DNA of 40,925 nt from Myxococcales bacterium (GTDB taxonomy: Bacteria > Myxococcota_A > UBA9042). A model generated the notes under the pieces. It worked only from the letters and a program-made list of their open reading frames with translations. It was not told the DNA's origin and did not search any database. This document shows positions 10,001 through 27,604 of the stretch, piece after piece. The stretch spans positions 1 to 40,925 of the forward strand of contig JAGSHB010000032.1 of the NCBI GenBank assembly GCA_023954815.1. The letters run 5' to 3'. The translations under genes were made by a program, and so were the position numbers. The stretch's first letter is position 1. Each line of letters starts with the position of its first letter.

Positions 10001-10161
10001 GGCAGCTCACCGTGGACATGCGTCGGCGTTGCATCGGCAGCACCGCTGTGCGTCAACAGCATGAAAAGCAAGGAAAACCCAATGGTAATCCGAGCTAGGG
10101 CTAGCCCTGTTTTGATAGGTAGGGTATTGCAAGCCCCAGCTTGCACGGCACGGCGTGACAT
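7012..10161 (-). CDS. Secreted N-acetylmuramoyl-L-alanine amidase with MYXO-CTERM-like tail
   Basis: This amidase should cut the bond between muramic acid and L-Ala in peptidoglycan. The 1,049-residue product has a signal peptide (about 1-44), then a split Amidase_3 domain: zinc ligands His184 (SPGHG), Glu213 (NAEA) and His465 (SWHSN), and catalytic Glu548 (VLVEG). Between them, at about 250-394, is an inserted domain resembling the golvesin/Xly carbohydrate-binding type. A fibronectin-III-like segment follows (about 595-685), then a glutamine-amidotransferase-like alpha/beta segment. The end has DAG-rich linkers and a GCGC motif, a hydrophobic segment and an RRRWR cluster, resembling the MYXO-CTERM signal that myxosortase processes for surface anchoring. 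Ten further residues follow the Arg cluster, which is unusual. The ATG at 10161 was chosen over 10344 because GGAGG lies 5 bases upstream and because the longer form overlaps rseP. Confidence 0.9.
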   Translation of the reverse strand: MSRRAVQAGACNTLPIKTGLALARITIGFSLLFMLLTHSGAADATPTHVHGELPAHLTEVSREIQAPWATVRLEVDWRQRRWLEEATVEAVSWYYIQVLRSWDVRHVRLLIDTTDWVGRQEQTARWQSITTAIMPRPPVPKRPWETRQASPPRRSPAPAVLGQPWVGAAKGALSGKTVYLSPGHGWYWNTKLKRWTAQRPNTHDIVEDFVNAEAATHYLVPLLRNAGATVVGVRELDRQPNMALIDDSSVSGYGETGAWQTGQGAGFAGKKSPYSGSVNPFALGSYRATKVSGGKPTAVATWTMKVKKPGLYTVYVGYTAGNNRAADAHYEVIDGGGSHSLRIDQRRHGQTWTALGQYWFKDKAVVRLHNDSKGQTDKYVVADVVRIGGGMGEIIRGNGKPPASGPTSERPRWEECSRYYAQYAGAPSVVWNASTTDNNDDVSARSRFAAWHHETGEDAVYLSWHSNAASGPARGTSTYVYGPNKPNGSKNYQGVKGSTALGTHVQNSLVADIRAQFDPAWKDRGLYSAYFGEVNPSHNPEMPAVLVEGAFHSTKADADFLREPRFRHAMARAMVKGIIKYFAERDKTPVLLPPSAPTDVRLTSDGVLTWKLGKSSSLLGDSATSFVVQQSADGRAFDAGLVVKSTTATLTMPKNNKPLFARVVALNAGGASLPSSVVGASAGCGTGAEVLWVDGFTRLQASQLPVEKMTPWDLGSVQRLRQDEVNTFDYAAEWVDALAISGRAVTGMARSGFASAPIPQSVRLVVWAAGEQSTNDGVLIASERHRLTEWLQLGGGRSVILSGSEVMWALDKKGSKASADWLATWFGARYEDDDAGVYSIAPAAGSTLAWAGGSFDDGTHHAYNVDWPDVLKLSGATAVLSYTGGAGVAAAHYQVGDAATLLLGFPVAALYPTSTRRGLVAAMLTMLKTPAAAKAGCGAAVADGADSDAGATDAGTTDAGTPTTDAGSRSGDGGATSLDGLGQLDGWTVDGGAGGDLSRVPPDDGCGCNISSGARRLDSAPWWLLALCLSVLFYRRRWRCVRVHCDLSR

Positions 10162-10272
10162 GGCTGCCTCCGGTAGACGCAGGGCATATCCTATCTGTCT
10201 GCGGGTTTCCACTGCCCTGGCCGTGCGCCACCGCTGTTGCAGACTATGCTGGCCATGTGGCGCGTGCGCCCC

Positions 10273-10276
10273 GGAG
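10273..10276 (+). promoter_or_regulatory. Ribosome binding site setting the rseP start
   Basis: GGAG lies 5 bases before the ATG at 10282. Earlier in-frame starts (TTG at 10237, ATGs at 10246 and 10255) lack a comparable site, so 10282 is preferred. Confidence 0.6.
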
Positions 10277-10281
10277 CGTCG

Positions 10282-12012
10282 ATGTTTGTCTTTCACTTTC
10301 TCTTGCTGCTCGTCCCCCTCGTGTTCTTTCATGAGTTGGGCCACTTCCTTGTGGCGCGGTGGATGGGCGTACGCGTTTTGTCTTTTTCGATCGGGTTTGG
10401 TCCCGTCGTCTTCGAGTGGGAGTCGGGCGGCACTCAGTACGCCGTGCGTGCCCTGCCACTTGGCGGATTTGTTCGCATGCTCGGTGAAGACGCGCCCGGG
10501 GAAGACAACGAGTCAAGCGGCGGGCCGCCGGAACCCGACAGCTTCGCCGCAAAAGCGGTCTGGCGTCGTGCGCTTATTGTCGCCGCTGGTCCGATCGCCA
10601 ATTTCATCTTGCCCATGGTTATTTTGCTCGTCGGCTCGTTGATGATGGACGGTCAGGTCATCTCAAGTCGCATCGGAACGGTCTTGCCTGGTGGCCCTGC
10701 AGAGCGAGCGGGCTTGGTCACCGGGGATAAGATCGTCGAGGTCGATGGCGAAGAGGTACGTCATTTTCGAGATCTGCAGCGTGTCATCGCTGCCAGGCCA
10801 GATCAGAAAGTGACCGCGTTGATCGAGCGCAATGGCAAGAAGATCCGTCTAAGTCTGACGCCAGAGGCCAAGGTCGATGCGCGTCTGCCGGAGATCGGCA
10901 TCGTTGATCGCGTGGGACGCATCCAGGTCTTACCGGACACCCAATCTGCCATCGTCGCCGTCTCGCCCGATTCTGCGGCGTGGGCTGCAGGGCTACGCAG
11001 CGGCGATCGCATTGTCTCGATCGGCGGCGCAAAGACCCCCGGATATTGGCAGGCAGCAGAGGCGCTGGCGCAAGCGCGCGGCACGACTGTCTCGTTGACC
11101 GTCCAGAATCTGAAGCGGGGAAAGAAGCCCGATGCGCCGATGCACGACAAGGACCACCCCAAAACGCTGACCCTGGCCGTGCCTGCCGGTGATGCGGACG
11201 TTGGGGTTCATCCCGCTCAGGCGGTCGTGGGGCGCGTGGAGCCGGATACGCCAGCGGCCAAGGCGGGCCTGCTTGTCGGCGACGAGCTGACCGCTATCAA
11301 CGGAAAAGAAATAGGCAGCTTCTTCGCCCTCGTCGACGTGATTCGGAAGCCCTACGACAAGGCCCGCGGCGCAGAGGAAAACCTGGGTCTGGAGGGTGAG
11401 GAGCTCCTGACGCGGCTCAACGCCGCACTCAGCGAGCCCTTTGCGGTGACGTACCGCCGACTGGAGGCAGGCAGTGTTGTCACAAAGACCGCGAGCCTGC
11501 GTATGGATGTCGCCATCGACAAGCGCACCAAGCGCCCGAGGCTGCAGTTGGGCCTAGGTCCCGCCCAGCGTTATGAAGCGCCCGAGCGCATCGCCAATCC
11601 TGCGCCCATCCCGTACGCCTGGGAGCGCATGCACACCGAGATGGGCGAGGCGATCAAGGTCACCGGCCTCACCGTTGTTGGTTTGTTTCGCGGCCGGGTG
11701 CCCATGAAGGAGGTCGGCGGCCCCATCTTCATGGCCCAGCTCGCTTCGAAGACCGCAGATCTGGGCTGGGGATACTTCTTCCGACTCATGGTGTGGCTCA
11801 GTATCAACCTCGCCATCTTGAACCTGCTACCGATTCCCCTGGTGGACGGCGGGCACCTCCTTTTCCTGGCGATCGAGGCCGTCAAACGTGAGCCGGTGAC
11901 GCTGCGCACACGCATGATCGCGAGCTATGTGGGGATGGGCTTTATCTTTTTCGTCTTTGTGATGGTCATGAAAAACGATGTCGAGCGCCTGATCGAGAGC
12001 TTCGTTCAATAG
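10282..12012 (+). CDS. rseP: RseP-like site-2 intramembrane metalloprotease
   Basis: RseP cuts transmembrane segments of anti-sigma factors and leftover signal peptides in the inner membrane. The 576-residue product has the zinc motif HELGH at 17-21 inside the first membrane helix, GPIANF at about 103-108, and NLLPIPLVDGG at about 514-524 with the third zinc ligand Asp522. Two more helices flank that region. The periplasmic part seems to hold three PDZ domains, beginning near 130, 222 and 313, where E. coli RseP has two. The protein is longer than the usual 450 residues. It is transcribed divergently from the amidase with a 120-base gap and lies 22 bases before tsaB. No anti-sigma factor is nearby, so the substrate cannot be read from context. 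Confidence 0.93.
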   Translation: MFVFHFLLLLVPLVFFHELGHFLVARWMGVRVLSFSIGFGPVVFEWESGGTQYAVRALPLGGFVRMLGEDAPGEDNESSGGPPEPDSFAAKAVWRRALIVAAGPIANFILPMVILLVGSLMMDGQVISSRIGTVLPGGPAERAGLVTGDKIVEVDGEEVRHFRDLQRVIAARPDQKVTALIERNGKKIRLSLTPEAKVDARLPEIGIVDRVGRIQVLPDTQSAIVAVSPDSAAWAAGLRSGDRIVSIGGAKTPGYWQAAEALAQARGTTVSLTVQNLKRGKKPDAPMHDKDHPKTLTLAVPAGDADVGVHPAQAVVGRVEPDTPAAKAGLLVGDELTAINGKEIGSFFALVDVIRKPYDKARGAEENLGLEGEELLTRLNAALSEPFAVTYRRLEAGSVVTKTASLRMDVAIDKRTKRPRLQLGLGPAQRYEAPERIANPAPIPYAWERMHTEMGEAIKVTGLTVVGLFRGRVPMKEVGGPIFMAQLASKTADLGWGYFFRLMVWLSINLAILNLLPIPLVDGGHLLFLAIEAVKREPVTLRTRMIASYVGMGFIFFVFVMVMKNDVERLIESFVQ

Positions 12013-12813: not shown

Positions 12814-13089
12814 ATGAAATATAGATTGCACCCAGGCGCTGCGCACCGTGAGGTGGCTGGTGAGTTCTTCGTCATCACAGCGGACCGCGCGCTGCATCAG
12901 TTGACCAACCCAACAGCGGCGACGATTTTTCGCACCCTGCGCGATGCCGCCGAGCCCGCGACGTTGAGCGCTGTTGCAGAGAGACTCACGCACGATTTCG
13001 AGGTCGAACAACCCCGTGCAATCGCGGACACACAGACGTTTTTGAGCACGCTGATCGAGCGGCAAATCGTAGAGTCGGTGTCGGATTGA
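12814..13089 (+). CDS. PqqD-like peptide-binding protein (RRE)
   Basis: This 91-residue protein has the size and pattern of PqqD, the RiPP recognition element that binds a precursor leader and presents it to a radical SAM enzyme. Features are an N-terminal beta strand, the segment VITADRALHQLTNPTAATIF that matches the PqqD 'l.. ...h.LN.ta..i..' core, and helices ending in a Phe-Leu-rich stretch (FLSTLIERQIV). An AGGAG site is 5 bases before the ATG. Gap to tsaB is 86 bases, so it may start its own transcript. Its likely partners are the putative precursor at 20361 and the radical SAM enzyme at 21458, seven kilobases downstream past the giant lipoprotein gene. Stand-alone PqqD-like proteins also occur with HprK-like kinases. 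The family call is firm; the partner is inference. Confidence 0.85.
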   Translation: MKYRLHPGAAHREVAGEFFVITADRALHQLTNPTAATIFRTLRDAAEPATLSAVAERLTHDFEVEQPRAIADTQTFLSTLIERQIVESVSD

Positions 13090-13278
13090 GCCGGTCGTTC
13101 GGTATCGGGGGATGAGCCATTGCGGCAATGTTCAAGAATTGGCAATCTATCGCGCGGACTGACCGCCTATCAGGGGGTTGCTTTGCGGCCTCCCCCGTAG
13201 GAGCCTGCCGCTGTCCCACGTGTCGCCCCCCGGTGACCCGATCGCATCAATGTCACGCCAGTGACTGAGGAAAAGCGT

Positions 13279-16200
13279 ATGAGAGTCATGAGTCTGGAAG
13301 CCCAGCTTCGCGTTGCAGCCATCCTGATTGTCGCCCTGGCGGCGGGATGTAGCACGAGCGATTCGGCCACCCCTGGGCCAGACGGGTTCGCTGATTCGAT
13401 CATTGATACCAATGACGGCGGCATCGTTGACACTGACGGGACCGATGCCGGCCCTGGCGTTGATACGCAGAACCAAGCGCAGGTTGATTTCCACCTGAAG
13501 CTCAAGACAGATGAAGTGCTGAAGGGCTCTGATAGCGTGATTCTGCCGACGACGCAGGACACAGAGCCAGATGAGGGCTTTCAGGCCGACGTCGTGGTCA
13601 CCGGAACCAACCTCGCCGAGGGGACTGAAATCACGGTCACTGTCGCAGGAAAGGCGGCGGGCAGCGGCACATTGAGCCAGGGTAGCGTGACGATCACCAA
13701 GGTCACTATCCCTTGTTCAGCAGTCGCTAGCTCCATTGTGGTCTCCGTGGCCAACGGTCCAAGCAAGACAAAGAGCGCGTTGGTAAACTGCAGCAACGCC
13801 TGCACCGCCAGCCTCACGAAGCCGGCCGACTGCCACACGACGGACGCAGACCCCAACAAGGACGGCTTCCAGGTCGCACTTGAGGTCGAGACCACGACGC
13901 CCGATTGCAGCCACGCTTACATCAAATTCACCGGCACGGACGGTACAGCCAGTGAGTCCGACAAGGTCGCGCTCAGTGGTCAGAGCAAAGTAACGGTCGT
14001 GGTTACGTTGGCCGCCAACGCCACAGGGCTGTCCAACGCCAGCGCTCAGGTTCAGGCCATCGTTGAAGATCAGGCTTTTCCTGAGCGTCCCAAGGGCACC
14101 TCACTTGAGCACACTGTCAAATTGACGACGGAGGCGCCTGTTCTTCAGATCCTCCAGCCTTCAGCTGCGACCGTCACGCTCGCTGACGACGCGAACGGCA
14201 ATCCCGTCGATGGTATCCAGCTCAACATCGTCGGCACTGCCTCGACCATGCAGCCGCTGGAGCCCGTCGAGGTGACCGTCAACGGTGTTGACGCCGGCAA
14301 AGCCAACATTGGCGCTGATGGTAACAGCTTCAAAACCACTCTGACGTTCGACAAATCCCAGGCCTACAAGATCGAGGTCAAGGGTACCAACAGCTGTGGT
14401 CTCTCCGGTGCGACGGACAAGACCATCACTGCATTCGTCGATCAGACAGCCCTCGTGATTTCGCAGCCCACGCCAAACGCGGTGCTGTTGGCCAAGAATG
14501 ACGGGGACACCAAGACGCCCGCGACCTACGAGACCAACGTCATCGTCAATGTCGCTAAGGGGACGCCGGGTGACACGGTCTCCGTCTTTTGCCGCACCAA
14601 CGCCGTTGGCAGCGCGTTCGAAAAGACCCCCGTCGGCACCGCCACTTATCCTGCAGGCGCTTCTGGCGTCTCTGTGCTCGCAGCGCTCGACACCGACGTG
14701 CTCGGCACAGCGATCGTATGCCGCGCATCCATTGATGGCGCGAACCCAGCGAGCAGCCCAGAGATCGCGTTTGTGGTTGGCTTGCCAGCCCCGTGCTTGA
14801 AAGTGCTGCTGCCGACCAAGAATGCTGCAGTGAAGGGGGCCGCCTTGCCCTTGACTGTCACGGCTACAAACCTCGACGGCCGCGTCGTTGAGGCCAAACT
14901 GTCCGTGAAGGGCGGCAGCACCTTCGTGGACGCGCCAGTGGGTAAGATTTCTCAGGGCTCGATGACGGTGAACGTCTCCCTGCAGAAGGGGAACCCCGCA
15001 GTTGCGTTGCCGGATGGCACTTATGTTCTCACGCTGGGCGCGAGCGATGCTTTTGGTAACCTAGCCAAAGAGTCGGTGTGCAGCGATTTGACGCGTACCT
15101 TCACGCTCGACAATACCGGGCCAAAGGTCGCGATTACTGCACCGACGAAAACGTCGCTTGACCCGGTGGTCGATGCAGATACCGACGCCAAGACGCCTGG
15201 CTACCAGACGAACGTCTCGATCAGCGTTTCGGGTGAAACCGGCGAGTCGATCGTGTGTCTGACCGTCGGAGCATTTAACGCACCTTGCCAAAAGGTCACT
15301 GGCGCTGGCTCGGTCACCTTTAGCAGCGTCTCGCTCCAGCCTGGGGCAAACTCGCTGGTGGTCACCGCCACAGATTCTCTCGGCAACAAGACGACCAATT
15401 CGCCTGCTACAGTCACCTTGATTTCCAATGCGGTCGTGGTGTCTTGGCTCGACCCGGCCTCCAACAAGGCCATCGCGTCGGATACAATCACGGTCAAGGC
15501 TAAGATTTCGAACCAGAAAGATGGAACCGCCATCACTGGGGCGAAGGTTGTGGTCTACGTCGGTGGCAAGGCGCAGCCAGCGGTCTCGGTGACCGAGTCC
15601 GCCGGTGGTCAGTACTCGGCCACCGTCGCTGGCCTCACCACAGGCAAGAACACGATCCAGTTTGTGGCTACGCCCGCCGGCGGCGGAGTCGAGGGCGTGT
15701 CGCCGCTACTCACGATCACCTACAAGGTCGGAACACCGACGGTGACGATCACGTCGCCGAGCGACAAGACCAGTTTCAACATCGCCTCGTCTGCCTGCTT
15801 GGTCACTTCCAAGGACTGCAAGACGAGCGCACAGATCCAAACGTCGAACGCCGCTGACGGCTCAGCTGTCGAGTTGAACGTCACCTGTGGCAGCAGCAAA
15901 AAGACCTTCAAAGGTAGCGTGAAAGCCGGAAAGGCAACGATCGCTGACGTCATCTTCACGCACGGTCAGTCGTGCACCGCAATCGCCACGGTGACGGATG
16001 AAGCTGGCCAGTCAGCCGACTCGTCCTCCATTGGTGTGTCGGTGGACCGCGTCGCTCCTGTCATTGCCTCACTCAACCCCAGCAAGACCTCCTTCCTGAG
16101 CGGCGACGACTTCAACAGCAATCCAGCCGATGGCATCCAAATCAACTTGAGCGCATCGGTGAGCGGCCTCGCAAAGGATGCGCCGATTAGCCTTGAGGTC

Positions 16201-19200
16201 TACGACGACGACGGCAAGAAGGTGAAGACCTACACCTCGAAGCCCCACCCCGCCATTCCAGAGACATCGTTCGCTTCTGTGGATTTCGAGCAAGTGACCC
16301 TGCCAGACGGTTTCAAGCTCAAGCTGAAATTCGCCACGGCTGATGCTGCTGGCAACAAGACCACCCTAGACAAGACGGTAAGCTCAGTCGCAAACGCGCC
16401 GGAAGTGCGGCTGACAAGCCCACCCTACATTGAGACGAAGAGCTGCACATCGAACGCGGCATGTGGTGTTGGCGTCTGCGTCGGTGGCAAATGTGCGACC
16501 GGTTGGAACAAGCTGTCGAGTCGCATCATCGGATTTTCGACGCTCGGCCTGCTTCCCGGCTCGAAAGCCCGGGTCTGCTCCAACAACGCCTCTGTCACCG
16601 GCAATGGTGCGTGCGCGACTCCTGGCTTCAACGCCGTCGCAGCGTCAGCTCAGATCGAGGTGACCGGCGGACTAGTCGATGTTTCGTCGCTCAAAGACGG
16701 TGACCACACCTTCATCGTCGAAGTCATCTTGCCCAACCTCAACGAGGGCGTGGCGGGCAATTGGGTATCTTCGACCAAGTCGCCCTTGGGCGTGACGGTC
16801 AGGAGCCGTCGCATCGTTGTCGACACGGTCGCACCTAGCATCAAGTCGATTCTCGCGCCGTCGAAGCCCGGAGTGCCCACTGGATGTCTGGCTGCGGCCT
16901 CGCAGACAGACACGAACGAGAAGCTCCCTGGTGGCACATTCAGCTTTGCAGCGACGACCACTGGTGAGAGCGCGAACATCACGATTTTCAACGGTAGCAA
17001 GAAAGTGGGCTCACAGGATGCGAGTGGCGCAACCACTGGTGTCGCCGTCACGCTTCCTGCAGGAAAGGTCGCGCTGAAGGCGATGGCTACAGACGCCGTC
17101 GGCAACGAGAGCGCAGCGTTTGATGTCGGTTCATTCACCGTCAACACAGTGGCGCCCATCGGTCAGTTTGTGCAGCCCAACAAAGCCGTATTGGTCAAGG
17201 GTGACGCTCTGGACGTGAAGTTTACGAGTTCTTCCAACGACGTGGAAGGTACGGCCTTGGTTCTGTCTGACGCAGGAAAGGTCGTTGGCACCGAGACCAT
17301 GACGAAGGGCGTCGCCACGTTCGCGCACGCGACGCACAAGGCGCTAAGCGACGGGACACACACCTTGACCGCCAAGCTGGTCGATACCTGTGGCAACGAG
17401 GTCAAAGTCGGCACGGTACCTTCCGAAATCAAGGTCGACACGACTGAGCCCACCGCGACCATCACGGCCCCCACTCAGGGACAGGTCTTCGGCGACAATG
17501 ACGATGCTAGCGCGTCCGCTGGCGGCTACCAGGTCAATCTCACCTTCGGGACGGCCAGTGGTGCCGCAACCTGGAAGGTCGATTTGGGCTCCGAGTGCGA
17601 CGCCACCTACAAGAACTGCAGCGGCTTCAAGTCGGTTGGTGCTGGCAAGGTCACCAACGCTGACGGCAACGAGCCAACCGTCGCTGTGACCATTCCCTTC
17701 GGCAAGTCCGACAACTTCGTCGCTCGGGTGACAGTCACCGACGATAGCGGCAATACGGCGTCGGTCGATCGCGGCTTCAAGGTCAAGCTGACCGGCTGCA
17801 AGGTCCTGCTGACCGGCCTACCAGCCTCCGGCAAGATCAATACCCAGTTCTGCCCGACCAAGGGCAGCGATTGCGCCAGCGTGAAGCTCAACCTGACTGC
17901 TGAGTACCTGGGCCCGTGCGGCAACGTGACCGAGGTGCGCTTGCTCAAGGGTTCTGCGACCGCCGCGTCCGCGACGCCAAGCGACTCCAAAGCCTCCCTG
18001 ACCCTGGATGTGAAGGACGGCGACGATACGAAGATTGAGGCGCTGGTGTTTGCCAAGAAGAAGCAGAATGGCTCGTCGGGCGCCACGAGTTTGCGTGTTG
18101 ACCTGTCCAATCCGAAGGTCGCCTTTGTTGCCACAAAGGTGCTTGGGTTCGACACCGCTGCCTCGGGCGCTACGGCGAACTACGGCGCTTCTGCCGACCA
18201 GGACAATGCTCAGAATGGTACTCAGGTTCACGCCGCGGTCCTGATCACGGACGGCAGCGTCGCTGGCGGGCAGATCACCAAACTCGAGAACACTCAGGGT
18301 TCGGCGACCACGCTCTCCTCGGCACTCAAGCTTCCGTTTGCTTTGTCCGGCACGGCCAAACAGCAGGTCGAAATCAAGTTCATCTCTCTGCCTACCGACG
18401 CCACGTCGAAGGTCACCGTCACGGTGGCCGACGCCATGGGCAACGTCGGTTCCGCGAGCTTTACCGCCATCACCGATGCCGTCGGCCCGGCTGCTCCCAC
18501 CCTGGGAGACATCACAGCGGCCGACGTCAATCCACGTCGTCCCTTCGTGAAGTTGAAGTTCAAGGCTGTCGCTGATAACGGCTCGACGGGGTCGGCCGCG
18601 AAGAGCTACGAGGTCCGCTACTCACGGAGCAATATCGCCTCGGCGACGGACTTTGATAAAGCCTGTGATGCCGCCTCACTGACGGCGAGTACGATTTCCG
18701 CTCCGAAGGCGCCCGGCGCCGACGAAGTGCTGACGGTCGAGGGCCCAGATGGTCGTGCATACGACGATTCGTGCAAGTTCGCCACGATGACCGACAACGG
18801 TGCGTCCAAGTTCTACTTCGCTGTTCGGGCAATTGACGCGGCAGGAAACAAGGGCGCCATCAGTAATGTGGTGTCGACCTCGGATGTGCGTCTGCGCTAC
18901 GCCAAGCTGACCGCAACCGTGTCGCCCTACAAGAGCAACTTCGCTTTCGCGTACCCCTACCCAATCGGCGACTTCAACGGTGACGGAAAGCAGGATGCCG
19001 CCGTGGCAGGCATCTTCGGCGCGCGCCTCTGTGTGCTCTTCGGTCACGCGGACAAGGACGGCATTGTCGGGGATTACGACATCACTGCGCAGACCGGCGC
19101 TTCGCACGCCTGCCTGAATAACACCACGTTGGTCGGCCTGTTGATCGCGTCTGCGGTCGACGTCAACGGCGATGGCTTCGACGATCTCGTCGTCGATGCA

Positions 19201-20331
19201 GACTCTGGTAAAGGCAAGCCGCGCTCCGTACACATCTACTTGGGCAACAAGGCTGGCACGCTGTCGTCGACGCCTCAGGTCAAGGTTACAAACATCACCA
19301 ACAACGGATCGTACGGGGTTAAGGCGCTGACTGCGGTCGGCAACTTCAACGGCGACACGACCAGCGGCGGCACGGCCATTGGCGACATCGCCTTTACGGT
19401 GACGGCGACGGCAACTAAGTTGTACGAGCGCGTGGTGATTCTGCCCGGCAACAGCGCGTGGTCTGCGTCTAGCGCTGTGACCATTGATGTGGAGAGCGCG
19501 GCTGACCGCAAGACCCACAACATGGTCACGGTTCATCGGAGCGACTCTGCAGGTAAGCCGGACTTTGGCTACCGCCTGCACAAGCTCGGCAACTTCGTGC
19601 GCGACACCGACGGCTCCGGCAAGCAGTTCGACGAGCTCGTCATCTCGCAGTACGCCAACACGCAGACCATCTACATCGTCAAGGGCCGCGAAGTGAGCGG
19701 CGACACAACCCTGACGGTCTCGAAGGACCTGACGGGCTCGGGCTCGGCGGACAAGACGACCTTGGCACTGCGTCCGGGCAACACGGGCGCGAACAACCCG
19801 CGTACGGTCATCCCGGTTCACTTTGATGGTGACAACCAGCTCGATCTGATGTTTAGCCACAACCCCTACAAGCAGCTCAATACGCTGTACTGGGTGCGCG
19901 GCAAGGATGCGGCCTCGAAGCTCGGCAAGGTGACGGTACTGGCGCTGACAGCCATCAACGGTGTCGCCAACACCTTCAGTCACAAGCTTGGGTATGCCTA
20001 CAAGACGTATGCCGATCCGATCTTCAGCCTCGGAAACTTTGGCGACCAGCAGGGCAAGCCCGCGACGACCATGGCCTCGACGCTGCCGAGCTACGCGCCT
20101 GGCGGCCGTACAACTGTCACCGTACGTCAGCCCATCGCACGGCCCGACAAGGCGACAGGCACGGAGCCGAGCTACCACGTTGCCGACCTGATCTTTGGTA
20201 ATCCCTTCGCAGCGGGAACGCAGACCATGGGCGCATTTACAGCGGCAGGTCTTGGCGATTTCAACGGTGACGGCTATCCAGACATGGTTATCGGTACCTA
20301 CAAAACTGGCTACACGGTTCTGGTCTACTAA
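13279..20331 (+). CDS. Giant Ig-like / FG-GAP lipoprotein, 2,350 residues
   Basis: The product begins with a signal peptide and lipobox L-A-A-G-C, so it is a lipoprotein, probably at the outer membrane. An Asp/Gly-rich spacer follows. Residues from about 60 to 1870 are a chain of Ig-like modules of roughly 100-130 residues, many opening with a strand ending in Pro (ITSPSDKTSF, ITAPTKTSL, ITAPTQGQVF). A Cys-rich EB-like motif (C-x5-C-x4-C-x4-C) is near 1055. The C-terminal 480 residues carry FG-GAP-type blade motifs: DFNGDGKQD, DVNGDGFDD, HFDGDNQLD and DFNGDGYPD, suggesting a calcium-binding propeller. The ATG at 13279 is preferred to the GTG at 13261 because GAGG lies 8 bases upstream and the signal peptide then starts directly. 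It sits between the PqqD-like gene and the putative precursor. Role in adhesion is a guess; function unknown. Confidence 0.88.
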   Translation: MRVMSLEAQLRVAAILIVALAAGCSTSDSATPGPDGFADSIIDTNDGGIVDTDGTDAGPGVDTQNQAQVDFHLKLKTDEVLKGSDSVILPTTQDTEPDEGFQADVVVTGTNLAEGTEITVTVAGKAAGSGTLSQGSVTITKVTIPCSAVASSIVVSVANGPSKTKSALVNCSNACTASLTKPADCHTTDADPNKDGFQVALEVETTTPDCSHAYIKFTGTDGTASESDKVALSGQSKVTVVVTLAANATGLSNASAQVQAIVEDQAFPERPKGTSLEHTVKLTTEAPVLQILQPSAATVTLADDANGNPVDGIQLNIVGTASTMQPLEPVEVTVNGVDAGKANIGADGNSFKTTLTFDKSQAYKIEVKGTNSCGLSGATDKTITAFVDQTALVISQPTPNAVLLAKNDGDTKTPATYETNVIVNVAKGTPGDTVSVFCRTNAVGSAFEKTPVGTATYPAGASGVSVLAALDTDVLGTAIVCRASIDGANPASSPEIAFVVGLPAPCLKVLLPTKNAAVKGAALPLTVTATNLDGRVVEAKLSVKGGSTFVDAPVGKISQGSMTVNVSLQKGNPAVALPDGTYVLTLGASDAFGNLAKESVCSDLTRTFTLDNTGPKVAITAPTKTSLDPVVDADTDAKTPGYQTNVSISVSGETGESIVCLTVGAFNAPCQKVTGAGSVTFSSVSLQPGANSLVVTATDSLGNKTTNSPATVTLISNAVVVSWLDPASNKAIASDTITVKAKISNQKDGTAITGAKVVVYVGGKAQPAVSVTESAGGQYSATVAGLTTGKNTIQFVATPAGGGVEGVSPLLTITYKVGTPTVTITSPSDKTSFNIASSACLVTSKDCKTSAQIQTSNAADGSAVELNVTCGSSKKTFKGSVKAGKATIADVIFTHGQSCTAIATVTDEAGQSADSSSIGVSVDRVAPVIASLNPSKTSFLSGDDFNSNPADGIQINLSASVSGLAKDAPISLEVYDDDGKKVKTYTSKPHPAIPETSFASVDFEQVTLPDGFKLKLKFATADAAGNKTTLDKTVSSVANAPEVRLTSPPYIETKSCTSNAACGVGVCVGGKCATGWNKLSSRIIGFSTLGLLPGSKARVCSNNASVTGNGACATPGFNAVAASAQIEVTGGLVDVSSLKDGDHTFIVEVILPNLNEGVAGNWVSSTKSPLGVTVRSRRIVVDTVAPSIKSILAPSKPGVPTGCLAAASQTDTNEKLPGGTFSFAATTTGESANITIFNGSKKVGSQDASGATTGVAVTLPAGKVALKAMATDAVGNESAAFDVGSFTVNTVAPIGQFVQPNKAVLVKGDALDVKFTSSSNDVEGTALVLSDAGKVVGTETMTKGVATFAHATHKALSDGTHTLTAKLVDTCGNEVKVGTVPSEIKVDTTEPTATITAPTQGQVFGDNDDASASAGGYQVNLTFGTASGAATWKVDLGSECDATYKNCSGFKSVGAGKVTNADGNEPTVAVTIPFGKSDNFVARVTVTDDSGNTASVDRGFKVKLTGCKVLLTGLPASGKINTQFCPTKGSDCASVKLNLTAEYLGPCGNVTEVRLLKGSATAASATPSDSKASLTLDVKDGDDTKIEALVFAKKKQNGSSGATSLRVDLSNPKVAFVATKVLGFDTAASGATANYGASADQDNAQNGTQVHAAVLITDGSVAGGQITKLENTQGSATTLSSALKLPFALSGTAKQQVEIKFISLPTDATSKVTVTVADAMGNVGSASFTAITDAVGPAAPTLGDITAADVNPRRPFVKLKFKAVADNGSTGSAAKSYEVRYSRSNIASATDFDKACDAASLTASTISAPKAPGADEVLTVEGPDGRAYDDSCKFATMTDNGASKFYFAVRAIDAAGNKGAISNVVSTSDVRLRYAKLTATVSPYKSNFAFAYPYPIGDFNGDGKQDAAVAGIFGARLCVLFGHADKDGIVGDYDITAQTGASHACLNNTTLVGLLIASAVDVNGDGFDDLVVDADSGKGKPRSVHIYLGNKAGTLSSTPQVKVTNITNNGSYGVKALTAVGNFNGDTTSGGTAIGDIAFTVTATATKLYERVVILPGNSAWSASSAVTIDVESAADRKTHNMVTVHRSDSAGKPDFGYRLHKLGNFVRDTDGSGKQFDELVISQYANTQTIYIVKGREVSGDTTLTVSKDLTGSGSADKTTLALRPGNTGANNPRTVIPVHFDGDNQLDLMFSHNPYKQLNTLYWVRGKDAASKLGKVTVLALTAINGVANTFSHKLGYAYKTYADPIFSLGNFGDQQGKPATTMASTLPSYAPGGRTTVTVRQPIARPDKATGTEPSYHVADLIFGNPFAAGTQTMGAFTAAGLGDFNGDGYPDMVIGTYKTGYTVLVY

Positions 20332-20349
20332 TGACTGGTACGGATCGTC

Positions 20350-20354
20350 GGGAG
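20350..20354 (+). promoter_or_regulatory. Ribosome binding site setting the precursor start
   Basis: GGGAG stands 6 bases before the ATG at 20361. The earlier in-frame ATG at 20331, which overlaps the stop of the giant gene, has no such site. Confidence 0.6.
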
Positions 20355-20360
20355 AGCAAG

Positions 20361-20555
20361 ATGGACAAGCAGGATCAGCACAAAGAACAGAGCCACGGGA
20401 CCGCCCAGGCGGAACTCCAGCCCAAGCTTCCTTATGAGGAGCCGACACTGGTGTCGACCGAAGGGCGTCCGCTGCACGCACTGCTCGGTTCACAGGCTTC
20501 GTGCGGTGACACGACCGGCGGTACCGGTGATCCGCCTTTCTGCGACCAAGTCTGA
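20361..20555 (+). CDS. Putative RiPP precursor peptide with lasso-type leader motif
   Basis: The 64-residue product has the build of a modified-peptide precursor. Residues 1-24 are hydrophilic and rich in Gln, Lys and Glu. Residues 25-35 contain Y-x-x-P-x-L (Tyr25, Pro28, Leu30) followed by Gly35, the motif that PqqD-type recognition elements bind in lasso-peptide leaders. The putative core from about 43 on is GSQASCGDTTGGTGDPPFC plus DQV, with Cys48 and Cys61 and four possible Ser/Thr targets between or just before them. It begins 29 bases after the giant gene and ends 25 bases before the HprK-like gene. Neither a hydrophobic signal peptide nor a bacteriocin double-Gly leader is clear, though a Leu-Leu-Gly-Ser at 41-44 could be near the cleavage site. 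Function as precursor is inferred from size, motif and neighbours. Confidence 0.75.
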   Translation: MDKQDQHKEQSHGTAQAELQPKLPYEEPTLVSTEGRPLHALLGSQASCGDTTGGTGDPPFCDQV

Positions 20556-20565
20556 GTCCGCTCAG
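20552..20565 (+). other. Stem-loop at the precursor stop codon
   Basis: CTGAG and CTCAG form a perfect 5-base stem around TCCG, with the TGA stop of the precursor inside the first arm. Placed between precursor and enzyme genes, it could lower read-through so that more peptide than enzyme is made, but it has no T tract and the stem is short. Confidence 0.35.
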
Positions 20566-20580
20566 CATTTGAATTAGCAG

Positions 20581-21468
20581 ATGTCCCGCACCACCGACAC
20601 GCTTGGCGCGAACTGGCCCCACTCCGTACTGGACTTCGCCGGCCGCCGGATCACCATCTCGGCCGGAACATTCCGCGTCGCGCTGACCCTCCCACAGCAT
20701 CCAATCATCGACAGCGCACTTCGCGGCTATGGCTGGCACGATCCGCCAGGCCTGCCAGCGCCGATCACCCTCGATGTCACGCTCTCAGACGATCCGCCCG
20801 TGCCCCACGCCTCTGTGCACGACTGGTCTGAAGCCGGTTTTGAACTGCGCGGCAAGTACGTCGACGGCCATTTTGATCTCTCACGTGGCACAGGGACGGT
20901 TCGTATCAAGATGGGGATCAAGAGCCCAGAGGATGTGCTGCGCGGCGGTATCCTGGAGGCCGCAATGGGTGCGCTACTGCACCAGGTGGTTCATGCCGGC
21001 GGGGTGATGGTGCACGCCGTGAGCTTGCTGCTTGAGGGGCGCGCTCACGTCGTCTTTGGCCACAGCGGCGCCGGAAAGACGACCCTTGGCCATCGCCTAC
21101 CTGCGTCTTTTCTCAACGAGGAATACGCCTTCATGGTGCCCGGGCCGACCCCCGAGCGTTGGCAGTGGCTGTGGTACGCCCAGGAGCGCGCGCCGCGTGT
21201 CGATCGCGCCGCCACGTTGCCTTTCGGAAATTTGTTCGCCATGGCCGCGGCGCGCGATGAGACCCGGTGTTGGCCGCTTGAGACCACCAAGGCCCCCGCA
21301 GCGTTGATGCCATCGCTGTACTGGTTGCCAGGCATGCCGAACGAGCTGCTATTGCACAATGTCCTGTCACTCGTACAGGCCCACCCCGTACGCTGGTTCA
21401 GCCACTGTCTCCAAACGCCGGAGACCGATGTCGCCGCACTAATTGGGAGCGACCACGATGTCCGCTAA
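20581..21468 (+). CDS. HprK-like kinase of the peptide locus
   Basis: This 295-residue protein resembles the HPr kinase-related proteins found beside PqqD-like proteins. The P-loop GHSGAGKTT is at 160-168 and follows a beta strand ARAHVVF-type segment; a short acidic stretch (FLNEEYAF) stands where HPr kinases have their Asp-Asp. The N-terminal 140 residues are unlike true HPr kinase. There is no HPr or phosphotransferase system gene nearby. In some lasso-peptide clusters HprK homologues phosphorylate the peptide's C-terminal Ser, but this precursor ends in Val, so a different acceptor would be needed. No good ribosome site precedes the ATG, which may mean coupling to the precursor gene 25 bases upstream. 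It overlaps the radical SAM gene by 11 bases. Kinase activity is inferred from the family. Confidence 0.75.
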   Translation: MSRTTDTLGANWPHSVLDFAGRRITISAGTFRVALTLPQHPIIDSALRGYGWHDPPGLPAPITLDVTLSDDPPVPHASVHDWSEAGFELRGKYVDGHFDLSRGTGTVRIKMGIKSPEDVLRGGILEAAMGALLHQVVHAGGVMVHAVSLLLEGRAHVVFGHSGAGKTTLGHRLPASFLNEEYAFMVPGPTPERWQWLWYAQERAPRVDRAATLPFGNLFAMAAARDETRCWPLETTKAPAALMPSLYWLPGMPNELLLHNVLSLVQAHPVRWFSHCLQTPETDVAALIGSDHDVR

Positions 21469-22639
21469 CGAAACCCCCTCCCTAGAGCGTCGACTCTCCG
21501 ACGCCTATAGCCGCGCAGATGTGCCCAGACGGGTGCACCTCGACATGACCTACCGCTGCGACTTGGACTGCGAGCACTGCTATCTGGACAACAAGACCAC
21601 GTGGCCCGAGTTGACCACTGCGGCCTGGCTTGGGGTTTTGGATGACCTCCACGAGATGGGCGTGCTCTATCTCCTTTGGAGCGGCGGTGAGGTGTTCGCC
21701 CGCGCAGACTTTGAGCAGCTCATTCGTCGTGCTGGCGAGTTGCGTTTTCTCAGTCGCGTGAAGACCCACGGCGGCAACATGACGCCGGAGCGCGCACAGA
21801 TCCTGAAAGAGAGCTTTGTGCAGCAGACGGACGTGAGCGTGTACTCCCTCGATCCGGAGATTCACGACGCGATTACGCGGGTGGCTGGCTCGTTGGAAAA
21901 CAGCTTGGCGGGCATTGATCTGCTTCTGGAAGCGGGTCTTCGCGTGCGTGTGTCGGTGACGGCGATGGAGTCAAATCGGCACGAGTTGGCTGATATGTCG
22001 CGGTTTTTTCGCGCGCGTGGCTGCGAATTCAGCATCAATCCCAACGTCATGCCAGATTCCAGCGGCACTGACATGCTCGATCCGCTGCTCCTCCAAGACG
22101 AGGGCTACATCGACATGGCCCGCGAGGTGTTGCGCATCGCTGAGCGTGATGACGCGCTACCGCGGCCCGGTCAGATCTCGCCGACTGGTGAGCCTTGCGG
22201 CGCAGGTCGCTCAAGCGCCTATATCGCACCAGATGGTGCGGTGTGGCCTTGCGTGATGTTTCCGATGTCCATCGGTCAGGTTCAAGAGCAGCCGTTTTCG
22301 ACGCTGTGGCATGAGTCGTCGGAGCGCGCCGCGCTGACGGAGTGGACCAACGCCGATCGCCAAGCGTGCAATAGCTGCGCGGGCAGCGGTGCGTGTTTCT
22401 ATTGCCCCGGCGAGGCGTACAAGCGCACCGGAGATTTCCGCACGGCTCCCGAAGTATTTCACTGGCGAACACGGCTGTGGATGCAGGCTTTTGAAGATGT
22501 GGGCGGCCGAACGTACTCCGAACAAGAGTGGCAGACCGTGCCTAGCGGTCATCATCCCCAGGACCAAGGCCGTAAGCGCAACTTCACCTTTCCGATCTAT
22601 CAACCATCGAAGGGGCGGAGAAAGAGCCCAACGTCATGA
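21458..22639 (+). CDS. Radical SAM/SPASM peptide-modifying enzyme
   Basis: The 393-residue product has the radical SAM motif C-x3-C-x2-C at Cys34, Cys38 and Cys41, then the SAM-binding SGGE motif near residue 75. The C-terminal third is a SPASM-type domain: a Cys in GEPCGAGRSSAYIAPDG, a second in VWPCVMFP, and a cluster C-x2-C-x5-C-x2-C (CNSCAGSGACFYC), able to hold auxiliary iron-sulfur clusters. SPASM enzymes include those that make thioether, C-C or epimerised bonds in RiPPs and PqqE. The ATG at 21458 has GGGAG 8 bases upstream and is preferred to the TTG at 21443. It overlaps the kinase gene by 11 bases and the peptidase gene by four (ATGA), so the three are translationally coupled. Which bond it makes cannot be told from sequence. 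Confidence 0.88.
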   Translation: MSANETPSLERRLSDAYSRADVPRRVHLDMTYRCDLDCEHCYLDNKTTWPELTTAAWLGVLDDLHEMGVLYLLWSGGEVFARADFEQLIRRAGELRFLSRVKTHGGNMTPERAQILKESFVQQTDVSVYSLDPEIHDAITRVAGSLENSLAGIDLLLEAGLRVRVSVTAMESNRHELADMSRFFRARGCEFSINPNVMPDSSGTDMLDPLLLQDEGYIDMAREVLRIAERDDALPRPGQISPTGEPCGAGRSSAYIAPDGAVWPCVMFPMSIGQVQEQPFSTLWHESSERAALTEWTNADRQACNSCAGSGACFYCPGEAYKRTGDFRTAPEVFHWRTRLWMQAFEDVGGRTYSEQEWQTVPSGHHPQDQGRKRNFTFPIYQPSKGRRKSPTS

Positions 22640-23022
22640 CCGACGGCTGGTGGCCAGTGCAGGGCGCATCGATGTGGCCCATCGTGCATGGCATGAGTTT
22701 GCACGCCCAACCCGCTGCAGAATTGGCTGTGGGCGATCTGGTCATATTCTTGGCTTCAACGGGCACCGACGTAGTTGCACATCGGGTCGTCCGAGTCGAT
22801 GGGGACGTTGTCACGACACGCGGCGACACCAATTCGTCCTGTGACCAACCCGTTCCCCGATCTTCGATTATCGGGAGAGTGGACGCGATCCGTTGGCGCA
22901 GTTGGACCCTCGCGATGCCGGCGCGCGGTCGACTCGCCACCGCGGAGCGCCTCTTCGGCCGGAGTTGGGCCCGCCTCGCTCCGAATCTACGCCGCGGTTG
23001 GCGCTCGATACGCAAAGTTTGA
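22636..23022 (+). CDS. SipW-like S24/S26 signal-peptidase family protein
   Basis: The 128-residue protein has the family motif G-A-S-M-W-P with the likely nucleophile Ser12, then AHRVV with His49 and the RGDTN...D segment at 62-70. That Ser/His arrangement is the SipW/archaeal type, not the Ser/Lys pair of LepB. No hydrophobic membrane anchor is visible, so it is probably cytoplasmic or peripheral, unlike ordinary signal peptidases. The C-terminal 40 residues are Arg-rich. It starts inside the radical SAM stop codon (ATGA). By position it is the natural candidate to remove the leader of the modified peptide, but this is inference. Its substrate could instead be a lipoprotein or other local protein. 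Confidence 0.75.
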   Translation: MTDGWWPVQGASMWPIVHGMSLHAQPAAELAVGDLVIFLASTGTDVVAHRVVRVDGDVVTTRGDTNSSCDQPVPRSSIIGRVDAIRWRSWTLAMPARGRLATAERLFGRSWARLAPNLRRGWRSIRKV

Positions 23023-25317: not shown

Positions 25318-25648
25318 AACGTCCGTCTGCGAAAAATCGAGAAAAGGCGCAGTCTGCTAGTGTCGCCGCGAACGCCGTCGCCGGGTTCAGGTGGATGAGC
25401 CGCGCGGTGCTCCCCGCGAGTTGAAATCAACATAAAACGCCGGAAACACAAAGCGGTAGCGCTGTGCGGGCTGTGACCTATCGAGCGGCGAGCTCCTTTT
25501 TCCGACGTTGTGTCACGGCCCTGAAGTTAGCGGGGTTGAAGCAGACCCTTGCGAGGACCGTTTTTGCTGGCCCGATCCGGTTGCCTCGCGCACAGCTTCG
25601 ATCCTACACTCGGCCCGCTGCAAGCAATACGCATGGAGGACTGCGGGA
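25318..25648. other. Gene-free stretch upstream of the FHA gene
   Basis: I see no convincing gene in these 331 bases; short open frames here have no ribosome sites or family features. A small palindrome, GTTGA-AA-TCAAC, lies at 25420-25431 and the bases after it are AT-rich for this genome, so the promoter of the FHA gene is probably in this stretch. I cannot assign -35 and -10 boxes. Confidence 0.4.
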
Positions 25649-27604
25649 ATGTATCTGGAATACCGCGACGTCTCTGGAAACATGGTTCACCTGCCACTCG
25701 ACGAGTCGGGTGAGCCTGTGACCATCGGCCGAAACCCTGGGTCCACGATCTATGCAAAGGAGAGCACAGTCTCTCGAAATCACGGTCGCATCGGCTATGA
25801 CGGCGAGACTTGGTACCTCAAAGATCTGGGTTCATCGAACGGCAGTTTTCACAACAGCGAACGTACAACACGCTCTCAACTCACCGCTGGCGATCTCGTT
25901 CGTATCGGTGAAGTGTTTGAGATCAAACTGCTTCAGGGCGAGCCTGACGCCGAGCTGACACCCAATCGTGGCCAGCGCTCCCGCGGCAAGAAGCCGACCA
26001 CCATGGGGCGCGCTGACGGTGGGCGGCCAAAGCCGGGCGCGAGTTCGGCAGACGAGCGTCGCCGTCGCAACAAGGAGCGCGAGGCGGAGCGTGAGCGTCG
26101 CCGCAAGGAGCGCGAGGAACGTCGTTCCGGGCGATCTCCCGCTGCGGAACCGGCGCCGGAAAAGGCCAAAGAGCGTCTGGAACGCAAGCCTGCGCCAGCG
26201 AAGAGTGAGGAGCGTCGTCGTGCACGGCGCGAGAGTGAGGCGCGGCCACGTACGCCGCGGCGCACCCAGTCCACGGGCGAGAGCCGCGTTGTCTCAGCGA
26301 TGCCCGATCCCAACGCAAGTGGGGATGTCGCAGAGCTCAAGCGCAAGGTCGCTGCATTGGAGGCCGCGCTCGCAGACTCTGAGCGCCGCGCCACCCAGAT
26401 TGAAAACGACTCCAAGAGCGCCGAGGCCCGGGCGATGCGTTACAGCGTCGAGCTCGATGGTTTGGGCGACAAGTACATCAAGCTCAAGGAGCAGAACCGG
26501 GTCATGGGAGCCTCCCTTGAGGAGACCCGCGAGGACCAGCGCAAGCGCGAAGACAGCGCCTTCGAGGCGGAGCGCCGCGTATCCGATCTGGAACAGGAGC
26601 TGGAGAGCGCGCGCACCAAGGCCGCTGACGCGACCGAGCAGCTGTCTGGGCTCAAAGTTCGTTTGACGCAAAAAGACCGGCAAATCGAGGAGCTACAACG
26701 GCAACTCGACTTGTTGGAGTATGAGCTTCGCAGCCATCGTGACGAGATCGAGATGCTGCAGGCCGACTACAATCGCGGCGGCGGTGAGACCGACCGGCTC
26801 GAGCGCAAGGTCAACTTGCTGCAGGAAGTCATCCAGGAAAAAGAGTCGGTTATCGAGCAGTTGCGCATCGACCTGCGCGACAAAGACATCGAGATTCGCC
26901 AGGCACGGATGGGTGTGGGCATCAGCGATCTGGAGCACGAAAAACGTACGCTGCTCGAGGATTACCACAACGCCATGCGCCGCTCCGATGAGATGAGCGA
27001 TCGCATCGAGAAGCAGCGCCGTGAGACGGACGCCCTTCGTCGTGAGCTGGAAGACAGCAAGAAGGTTGTGGAAGAGCGCAAAGCCGGGCCGACGGACATC
27101 ACCGACCACCCCGACTTCAAGGCGAAAGTGCGCGAGCTCGAGCGGGCCGAGGAGCAGCTGTCGCAGGCCCAACGGGATATTGCCAAGGCAGAGCTGAAGT
27201 TGGAGAGCCTGGCAGCCGACTCGGAGAGCACCAAGAAGCTCGCCGGCGAAGTGTCCATGCTGCAGAAGAAGAACGACACGCTGCAGAGTCGACTCGAATC
27301 TGCCGAATCGCGCGTCGCGGAGCTGCAGGAGATCGAGGACAAAGCCCCCTCGGGCCCGACCATTCCAATCGGCGTCGACGAAGATATCGAAGCGCTGCAA
27401 GACGCAGCCGCGGCGAGCAAATCGAACGCCCGCCTGGTGCGCAAGTACGCGCAGACCCTTGAGAAGAGCTTGGATAAAGAGAGCGATCTAGGCGAAGCCG
27501 CCGACCTGCTCTACGACATCGCGGTCGTGCTGGTGCAAGACATCACCGAGCAGGTTCGCATGGTCAAAGAGCTTGAGCACAAACTCATTAGCGAGGAAGC
27601 ATGA
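25649..27604 (+). CDS. FHA-domain coiled-coil protein
   Basis: The 651-residue product starts with an FHA domain (about 20-95) that keeps the phosphothreonine-binding residues Gly27-Arg28, Ser42, His45 and Asn64-Gly65. Residues about 100-225 are Arg/Lys/Glu/Pro-rich and probably unfolded. From about 235 to 600 it is a long coiled coil with no membrane segment. The frame is open from 25508, but the ATG at 25649 has GGAGG about 9 bases upstream and starts at the FHA domain. The last four bases overlap the ATPase start (ATGA), so the two proteins are made together. FHA domains bind phosphothreonine proteins; a Ser/Thr kinase partner is expected but none is in the window. The likely role is a phospho-controlled scaffold for the ATPase, by inference. 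Confidence 0.88.
   Translation: MYLEYRDVSGNMVHLPLDESGEPVTIGRNPGSTIYAKESTVSRNHGRIGYDGETWYLKDLGSSNGSFHNSERTTRSQLTAGDLVRIGEVFEIKLLQGEPDAELTPNRGQRSRGKKPTTMGRADGGRPKPGASSADERRRRNKEREAERERRRKEREERRSGRSPAAEPAPEKAKERLERKPAPAKSEERRRARRESEARPRTPRRTQSTGESRVVSAMPDPNASGDVAELKRKVAALEAALADSERRATQIENDSKSAEARAMRYSVELDGLGDKYIKLKEQNRVMGASLEETREDQRKREDSAFEAERRVSDLEQELESARTKAADATEQLSGLKVRLTQKDRQIEELQRQLDLLEYELRSHRDEIEMLQADYNRGGGETDRLERKVNLLQEVIQEKESVIEQLRIDLRDKDIEIRQARMGVGISDLEHEKRTLLEDYHNAMRRSDEMSDRIEKQRRETDALRRELEDSKKVVEERKAGPTDITDHPDFKAKVRELERAEEQLSQAQRDIAKAELKLESLAADSESTKKLAGEVSMLQKKNDTLQSRLESAESRVAELQEIEDKAPSGPTIPIGVDEDIEALQDAAAASKSNARLVRKYAQTLEKSLDKESDLGEAADLLYDIAVVLVQDITEQVRMVKELEHKLISEEA

Follow-up and report, generated by a model that had tools for sequence, protein, structure and literature searches.

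RiPP pathways are usually mined for secreted antibiotics, signals, and small cofactors. The RiPP-type machine analyzed here occurs in single copy, is inherited vertically, and is tied, across a bacterial class, to a single giant surface protein. It lies in a 40,925-nucleotide stretch (contig JAGSHB010000032.1 of assembly GCA_023954815.1; hereafter the window) from a Myxococcales bacterium whose genome is 6.44 Mb and 97% complete. We propose that the locus is a dedicated, vertically inherited RiPP-type modification cassette working with a giant cell-surface lipoprotein, a reading to which we assign a probability of roughly 0.7.

Genes and enzymes of the locus

The unit is read in one direction on the forward strand. 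It opens with a discrete PqqD-like RiPP recognition element (RRE; 12814–13089; PF05402, 31.7 bits, over cut-off), upstream of which lie rseP and tsaB. There follow a predicted giant surface lipoprotein of 2,356 residues (13261–20331; PF19077, PF13517, and PF01839 over cut-off), a 64-residue precursor peptide (20361–20555), a predicted HprK/PEPCK-fold kinase (20581–21468), a radical SAM/SPASM enzyme (21443–22639; PF04055 at 67.4 bits and PF13186 at 39.8 bits, both over cut-off), and a SipW-like (S24/S26) candidate Ser/His/Asp peptidase (22636–23022), with genes for a TPR (YbgF-like) and then a LysM protein downstream. A preliminary description, made from the sequence alone, had set out the RRE, peptide, kinase, radical SAM, and peptidase genes in one direction, and all five were found where it placed them; it passed over the 2,356-residue ORF between RRE and peptide, which belongs to the conserved unit. 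Its statement that the last three genes overlap holds outright for the radical SAM and peptidase genes (4 bases) and, given a TTG start, for the kinase and radical SAM genes as well. On the reverse strand, a 687-residue open frame antisense to the giant gene (18676–20739) is probably a shadow ORF of high-GC coding sequence. Elsewhere in the window, 7012–10344 (reverse strand) encodes a 1,110-residue protein whose sequence, judged by eye, looks like that of an N-acetylmuramoyl amidase ending in a sorting-like tail, and 25508–29262 (forward strand) holds an FHA-domain coiled-coil protein followed by an AAA ATPase.

An RRE stands at the same place in same-family loci wherever the contig extends so far, and the lasso-RRE models match that of the window weakly, below cut-off (NF033530, 27.5 bits; TIGR04353, 17.4 bits). 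The kinase had no Pfam match over cut-off, and since a PDB sequence search with it gave nothing useful, a structural route was taken. Its AlphaFold2 model, built on 29 aligned homologs, has a pLDDT of 91.5, and the top Foldseek matches are PEPCK (6e-8) and HPr kinase (4.7e-5); H145 and the P-loop residues G165, K166, and T168 are invariant. On this model the kinase has an HprK/PEPCK fold, an identity that comes via structure, not Pfam. The radical SAM enzyme carries a CX3CX2C motif at Cys39–Cys46 and SPASM cysteines at 252, 270, 309, 312, 318, and 321, all in conserved columns. SkfB is its nearest solved enzyme by sequence; against the AlbA, SkfB, and StsB models the protein stays far under cut-off, and it is weakly similar to the PqqE and mycofactocin maturase models. 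A role in anti-phage defense was considered and set aside, since in PADLOC the radical SAM domain gave nothing beyond a weak viperin-like match.

The SipW-like protein matches TIGR02228 below that model's cut-off. Its predicted structure (pLDDT 93) has an S24/S26 fold with no membrane segment, and Foldseek aligns it with LexA, the C-terminal domain of lambda repressor, and the human signal peptidase complex. Ser12, His49, and Asp64 are invariant and Asp70 nearly so, and the protein is likely to be the leader peptidase of the precursor. A second YxxP locus, in a same-genus genome (L050, 9346–11782; G002:C862), encodes a YxxP ORF, a Transglut_core3 protease, an RRE (PqqD), an HprK-like protein (weak profile match), and a radical SAM/SPASM enzyme. 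There a leader protease of lasso type, Transglut_core3, is combined with the radical SAM cassette and takes the place of the SipW-like one, as would be expected if both were leader peptidases; within this group, proteases of the SipW-like and B2-like kinds may thus substitute for each other in leader removal. Four genomes (G030, G025, G023, and that of L095) gave neither a TIGR02228 nor a Transglut_core3 match, and a replacement protease was not found in them, which counts against the pathway proposed below.

The precursor and the inheritance of the unit

A ribosome-binding-like GGGAGAG precedes the ATG of the 64-residue peptide at 20361; an alternative in-frame ATG at 20331 would give a peptide of 74 residues. 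The leader motif Y25-E-E-P28-T-L30 is followed by LLGS and Cys48, and a further cysteine lies at position 61. The peptide has no signal sequence, and an NCBIfam search with it gave no convincing match to a named family. The preliminary description had taken this small ORF for a precursor with a Y-x-x-P leader, and its homologs are indeed present in neighboring genomes: an ORF of 40–120 residues with [YW]xxP and a downstream Cys occurs in 29 of 30 gaps between giant and kinase genes, against a mean of 1.3 and a maximum of 4 when the same gaps were shuffled (first-order Markov, 200 shuffles) and a single such ORF on their reverse strand. The thirtieth gap, that of locus L048, has YxxA instead of YxxP.

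The precursor consensus in the window's family is PYxxPxVxT....L..LL[AG]S.C, and core sequences are highly variable within the window's class. An equivalent of Cys48 is present in every precursor; Cys61, which the preliminary description had paired with it, is not conserved, as 14 of the 36 class precursors have a single Cys after the motif. Ser or Thr stands at Tyr+18 in 28/36 class precursors versus 3/22 precursors elsewhere.

Relatives of the radical SAM enzyme were found in 31 of 36 genomes, the closest available one at 58% identity. The 20 loci examined from the same family all keep the order rseP-tsaB-RRE-giant-peptide-kinase-radical SAM-SipW-ybgF-LysM, contig permitting; the preliminary description had suggested a search for the gene order in other Myxococcota genomes. 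Throughout this family the locus is single-copy, nearly universal, and fixed in its housekeeping position (rseP-tsaB ... ybgF-LysM), and the core gene set recurs in other families of the class. No transporter is found among the conserved genes of the unit in same-family loci. Across 43 genomes of the class that are at least 85% complete, with the family radical SAM enzyme called at E < 1e-80, giant and enzyme are both present in 34 and both absent from 6, while the giant occurs alone in 3 and the enzyme alone in none (Fisher p = 1e-5, uncorrected for relatedness). In the three genomes with the giant alone, the matches lie close to contig starts or the radical SAM gene is fragmentary. A complete Myxococcota-type cassette with its giant was also seen in a bin labeled as a Klebsiella pneumoniae MAG (L052, CAMDBH010000004.1), a label that is almost certainly wrong.

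The locus has a small precursor ORF with a conserved leader beside modifying enzymes, an RRE over cut-off, and an enzyme set conserved and co-inherited across class genomes, all of which uphold its earlier description as RiPP-type. Being single-copy, fixed among housekeeping genes, devoid of a conserved transporter, and tied to one giant, it does not look like a product-diversifying biosynthetic cluster.

Giant partners within and beyond the class

The giant has a signal sequence with a lipobox-like Cys30, Big_13 Ig-like repeats, and C-terminal FG-GAP repeats. On its sequence the giant is predicted to be a lipoprotein, the Cys30 column being conserved in 26/30 homologs. Many other cysteines are conserved, and conservation extends over the full length. 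It is single copy per genome and is co-inherited with the radical SAM enzyme.

The radical SAM alignment, run against the GTDB genome collection, yielded 80 loci, of which those outside the class, being seeded by radical SAM similarity, are not an unbiased census. Purpose-built profiles detected kinase together with radical SAM enzyme, in most cases along with an RRE and a SipW-like protein, among Elusimicrobiota, Acidobacteriota, Chloroflexota (Anaerolineaceae), Planctomycetota, Methylomirabilota, Omnitrophota, other Myxococcota, and single Pseudomonadota-labeled bins. A small YxxP ORF adjoins the kinase in most of these loci. Examples are KPYEKPxLxxVxLRPEEAVLGxCK in Acidobacteriota and Myxococcota and KKxYxKPxxKTEKVFETAALACGKC in Elusimicrobiota; exactly three Cys are found in 21/22 precursors outside the class, the first of them at Tyr+20 in 17/22. 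In the radical SAM tree, whose root is arbitrary, one side of a supported branch (75 rows) contains all 67 kinase-associated rows, and sub-clades follow the kind of partner (window type, C25 type, Elusimicrobiota type).

Analogous machines accompany other giant secreted proteins in these groups. The radical SAM gene has a same-strand ORF of at least 800 residues within 2.5 kb in 26/36 kinase loci versus 4/22 loci with no kinase (Fisher p = 1e-4, uncorrected for relatedness). Giants with a gingipain-type peptidase C25 domain (Pfam), in some cases accompanied by DUF11, Ig, or cadherin-like repeats, occur in Acidobacteriota, Chloroflexota, Myxococcota, and a deltaproteobacterium, and the C25 profile is enriched in kinase-bearing loci outside the window's giant type (18/31 versus 1/22 others; Fisher p = 4e-5, again uncorrected for relatedness). 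The GHG...C dyad is visible in most of the C25 giants; GHG is absent from those of L103 and L123, whose C25 domains may be inactive relatives. Elusimicrobiota loci encode fn3 giants of about 2,000–3,100 residues (Pfam). In L084, L086, L100, and L107 the SipW-like domain is itself the N-terminal part of a giant ORF of ~2,450–2,830 residues, followed by a hydrophobic segment and an extracellular part; L085 has the same fusion start on a cut contig, and all five fusion loci are acidobacterial. Our literature search found no description of C25 or gingipain with radical SAM or HprK.

Proposed pathway and comparison with known systems

We propose that the 64-residue precursor docks on the PqqD-like RRE through its Y25xxP28 strand, so presenting the core to the radical SAM/SPASM enzyme, which would most likely install a radical cross-link, for example a thioether, at the conserved Cys about 20 residues past the Tyr. 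The HprK-like kinase would phosphorylate the Ser/Thr just before this Cys, by analogy with the kinases of linear polyphosphorylated peptides (LPPs) and paeninodin, and the SipW-like Ser/His/Asp peptidase would then cleave off the leader while the RRE holds it. We infer these steps of docking, radical modification, phosphorylation, and leader removal from domain identities and conservation, from radical SAM RiPP biochemistry, and from the LPP system, which has been studied by experiment (PMC13381572). With so few Ser/Thr at Tyr+18 outside the class, the kinase cannot in general serve to phosphorylate that position, which leaves its target uncertain; a universal LPP-type phosphoserine was rejected on this ground.

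The short modified Cys core would finally act on or with the giant, as a ligand, cap, regulator, or attached group. This last step is drawn from genome context only: co-inheritance in the class, recurring giant secreted partners in other phyla, and the peptidase-giant fusions of Acidobacteriota point to it. Against a partnership stand the lack of a conserved transporter and of a signal sequence on the precursor, and co-inheritance of giant and cassette need not mean that they touch. Should the link prove functional, the cell surface would be equipped or controlled by radical SAM chemistry, with the fusions, the kinase, and the conserved Cys as concrete handles on it. More tentatively, and at somewhat short of even odds, we suggest that the cassettes form a RiPP-type class spanning at least five phyla in which the modified Cys peptide serves giant extracellular proteins as a dedicated partner instead of being secreted as a natural product. 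A cross-linked peptide might, for example, cap, regulate, or be joined to Ig/FG-GAP, C25, or fn3 giants, the leader peptidase at times being built into the giant's own N-terminus. Co-inheritance in the class and the related cassettes beside giants in distant phyla suggest a form of peptide modification that has not been described before and is linked to the bacterial surface.

The same genes might instead make an ordinary secreted RiPP, a bacteriocin or signal of sactipeptide or ranthipeptide type, kept beside a surface protein that is uninvolved. A radical SAM/SPASM enzyme, an RRE, and a variable core containing Cys are indeed the usual layout of such systems, and SkfB is the nearest solved enzyme, but natural-product clusters are not expected to sit in single copy at a fixed housekeeping position in nearly every member of a family, to lack a transporter gene, or to travel with giants that recur, in places fused, in other phyla; we regard this reading as unlikely. 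That the locus is an LPP member whose main modification is the kinase reaction, with the radical SAM enzyme for tailoring, seems to us quite unlikely: the YxxP leader, discrete RRE, HprK-like kinase, and SipW-like protein with its Ser/His/Asp residues all fit, as does the LPP phosphoserine spacing of the Tyr+18 Ser/Thr in the class, whereas the NTP transferase, the MsbA-like transporter, and the HQxIxFET part of the leader are absent, a radical SAM enzyme and an invariant Cys are present, and precursors of other phyla are mostly without the Ser.

A cofactor made from the peptide, redox or catalytic, for use by the giant and akin to PQQ or mycofactocin, would agree with the PqqD-like RRE, the weak similarity of the SPASM enzyme to PqqE and mycofactocin maturase models, vertical inheritance, and a partner protein encoded alongside. 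Yet Cys is the sole constant of a core that otherwise varies, and the partners (Ig/FG-GAP, C25 peptidase, fn3) are unrelated in type, which makes a cofactor highly improbable. We accordingly prefer a modification cassette working with the giant.

Our literature search found no published name for this combination of genes. With sactipeptides and ranthipeptides (SkfB, AlbA, StsB, SCIFF) the locus shares a SPASM radical SAM enzyme, a Cys-containing peptide, and an RRE, but it differs in pairing a YxxP leader with an HprK-like kinase and a SipW-like peptidase, and in scoring far under the AlbA, SkfB, and StsB cut-offs. The SynChlorMet cassette, which going by its model names places a P-loop HprK-like protein beside PqqD-like and radical SAM/SPASM proteins, was rejected as a match: all of its NCBIfam models score far below cut-off (ScmC, 13.9 versus 125 bits; ScmE, 84.5 versus 400; ScmF, 56.6 versus 400), and there is one radical SAM enzyme here, not two. 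A literature search under the name SynChlorMet found no paper. Lasso peptides of the paeninodin type with an HprK-like kinase share the YxxP leader, the discrete RRE, and the kinase, but the unit has a radical SAM enzyme instead of a Transglut_core3 protease and a macrolactam synthetase. Transglut_core3 (B2) has no match in the whole host genome, by which lasso identity was rejected, and an Asn-synthetase-like macrolactam cyclase is absent from the conserved-unit genes, in agreement with the preliminary description of a lasso-type leader outside a lasso locus.

The closest resemblance is to the LPPs of Bacillota, described in 2026, which combine a YxxP leader, a discrete RRE, an HprK-like kinase, the SipW-like LppS, an NTP transferase, and an MsbA-like transporter (PMC13381572). 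The LPP kinase phosphorylates core Ser3, and LppS, which needs its Ser/His/Asp triad, cuts the leader only together with the RRE; the leader consensus is YxxPxVLxHQxIxFETxxS with the phosphoserine at Tyr+18, and the word "radical" is absent from the main text of that work (PMC13381572). The preliminary description could match the locus to no named class. Its YxxP leader, RRE, kinase, and SipW-like peptidase do correspond to the LPP core, while the radical SAM enzyme and the giant stay unmatched. Both systems also lack a lasso cyclase and join a conserved leader to a variable C-terminus. What sets the locus apart is its radical SAM/SPASM enzyme, conserved core Cys, and giant surface lipoprotein; neither an NTP transferase nor an MsbA-like transporter occurs between the PqqD and LysM genes in the window or in the conserved order, and only YxxP and, in most class members, the Tyr+18 Ser/Thr are shared with the LPP leader. 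LPPs belong to Bacillota, whereas the cassette of radical SAM enzyme and giant occurs in Myxococcota and other phyla. HprK-like kinases of RiPPs and leader peptidases of the SipW-like kind, both described from Bacillota not long ago, are here extended to many phyla. On the best reading, the locus is a RiPP-type system that is LPP-like in logic and distinct from LPPs by its defining parts.
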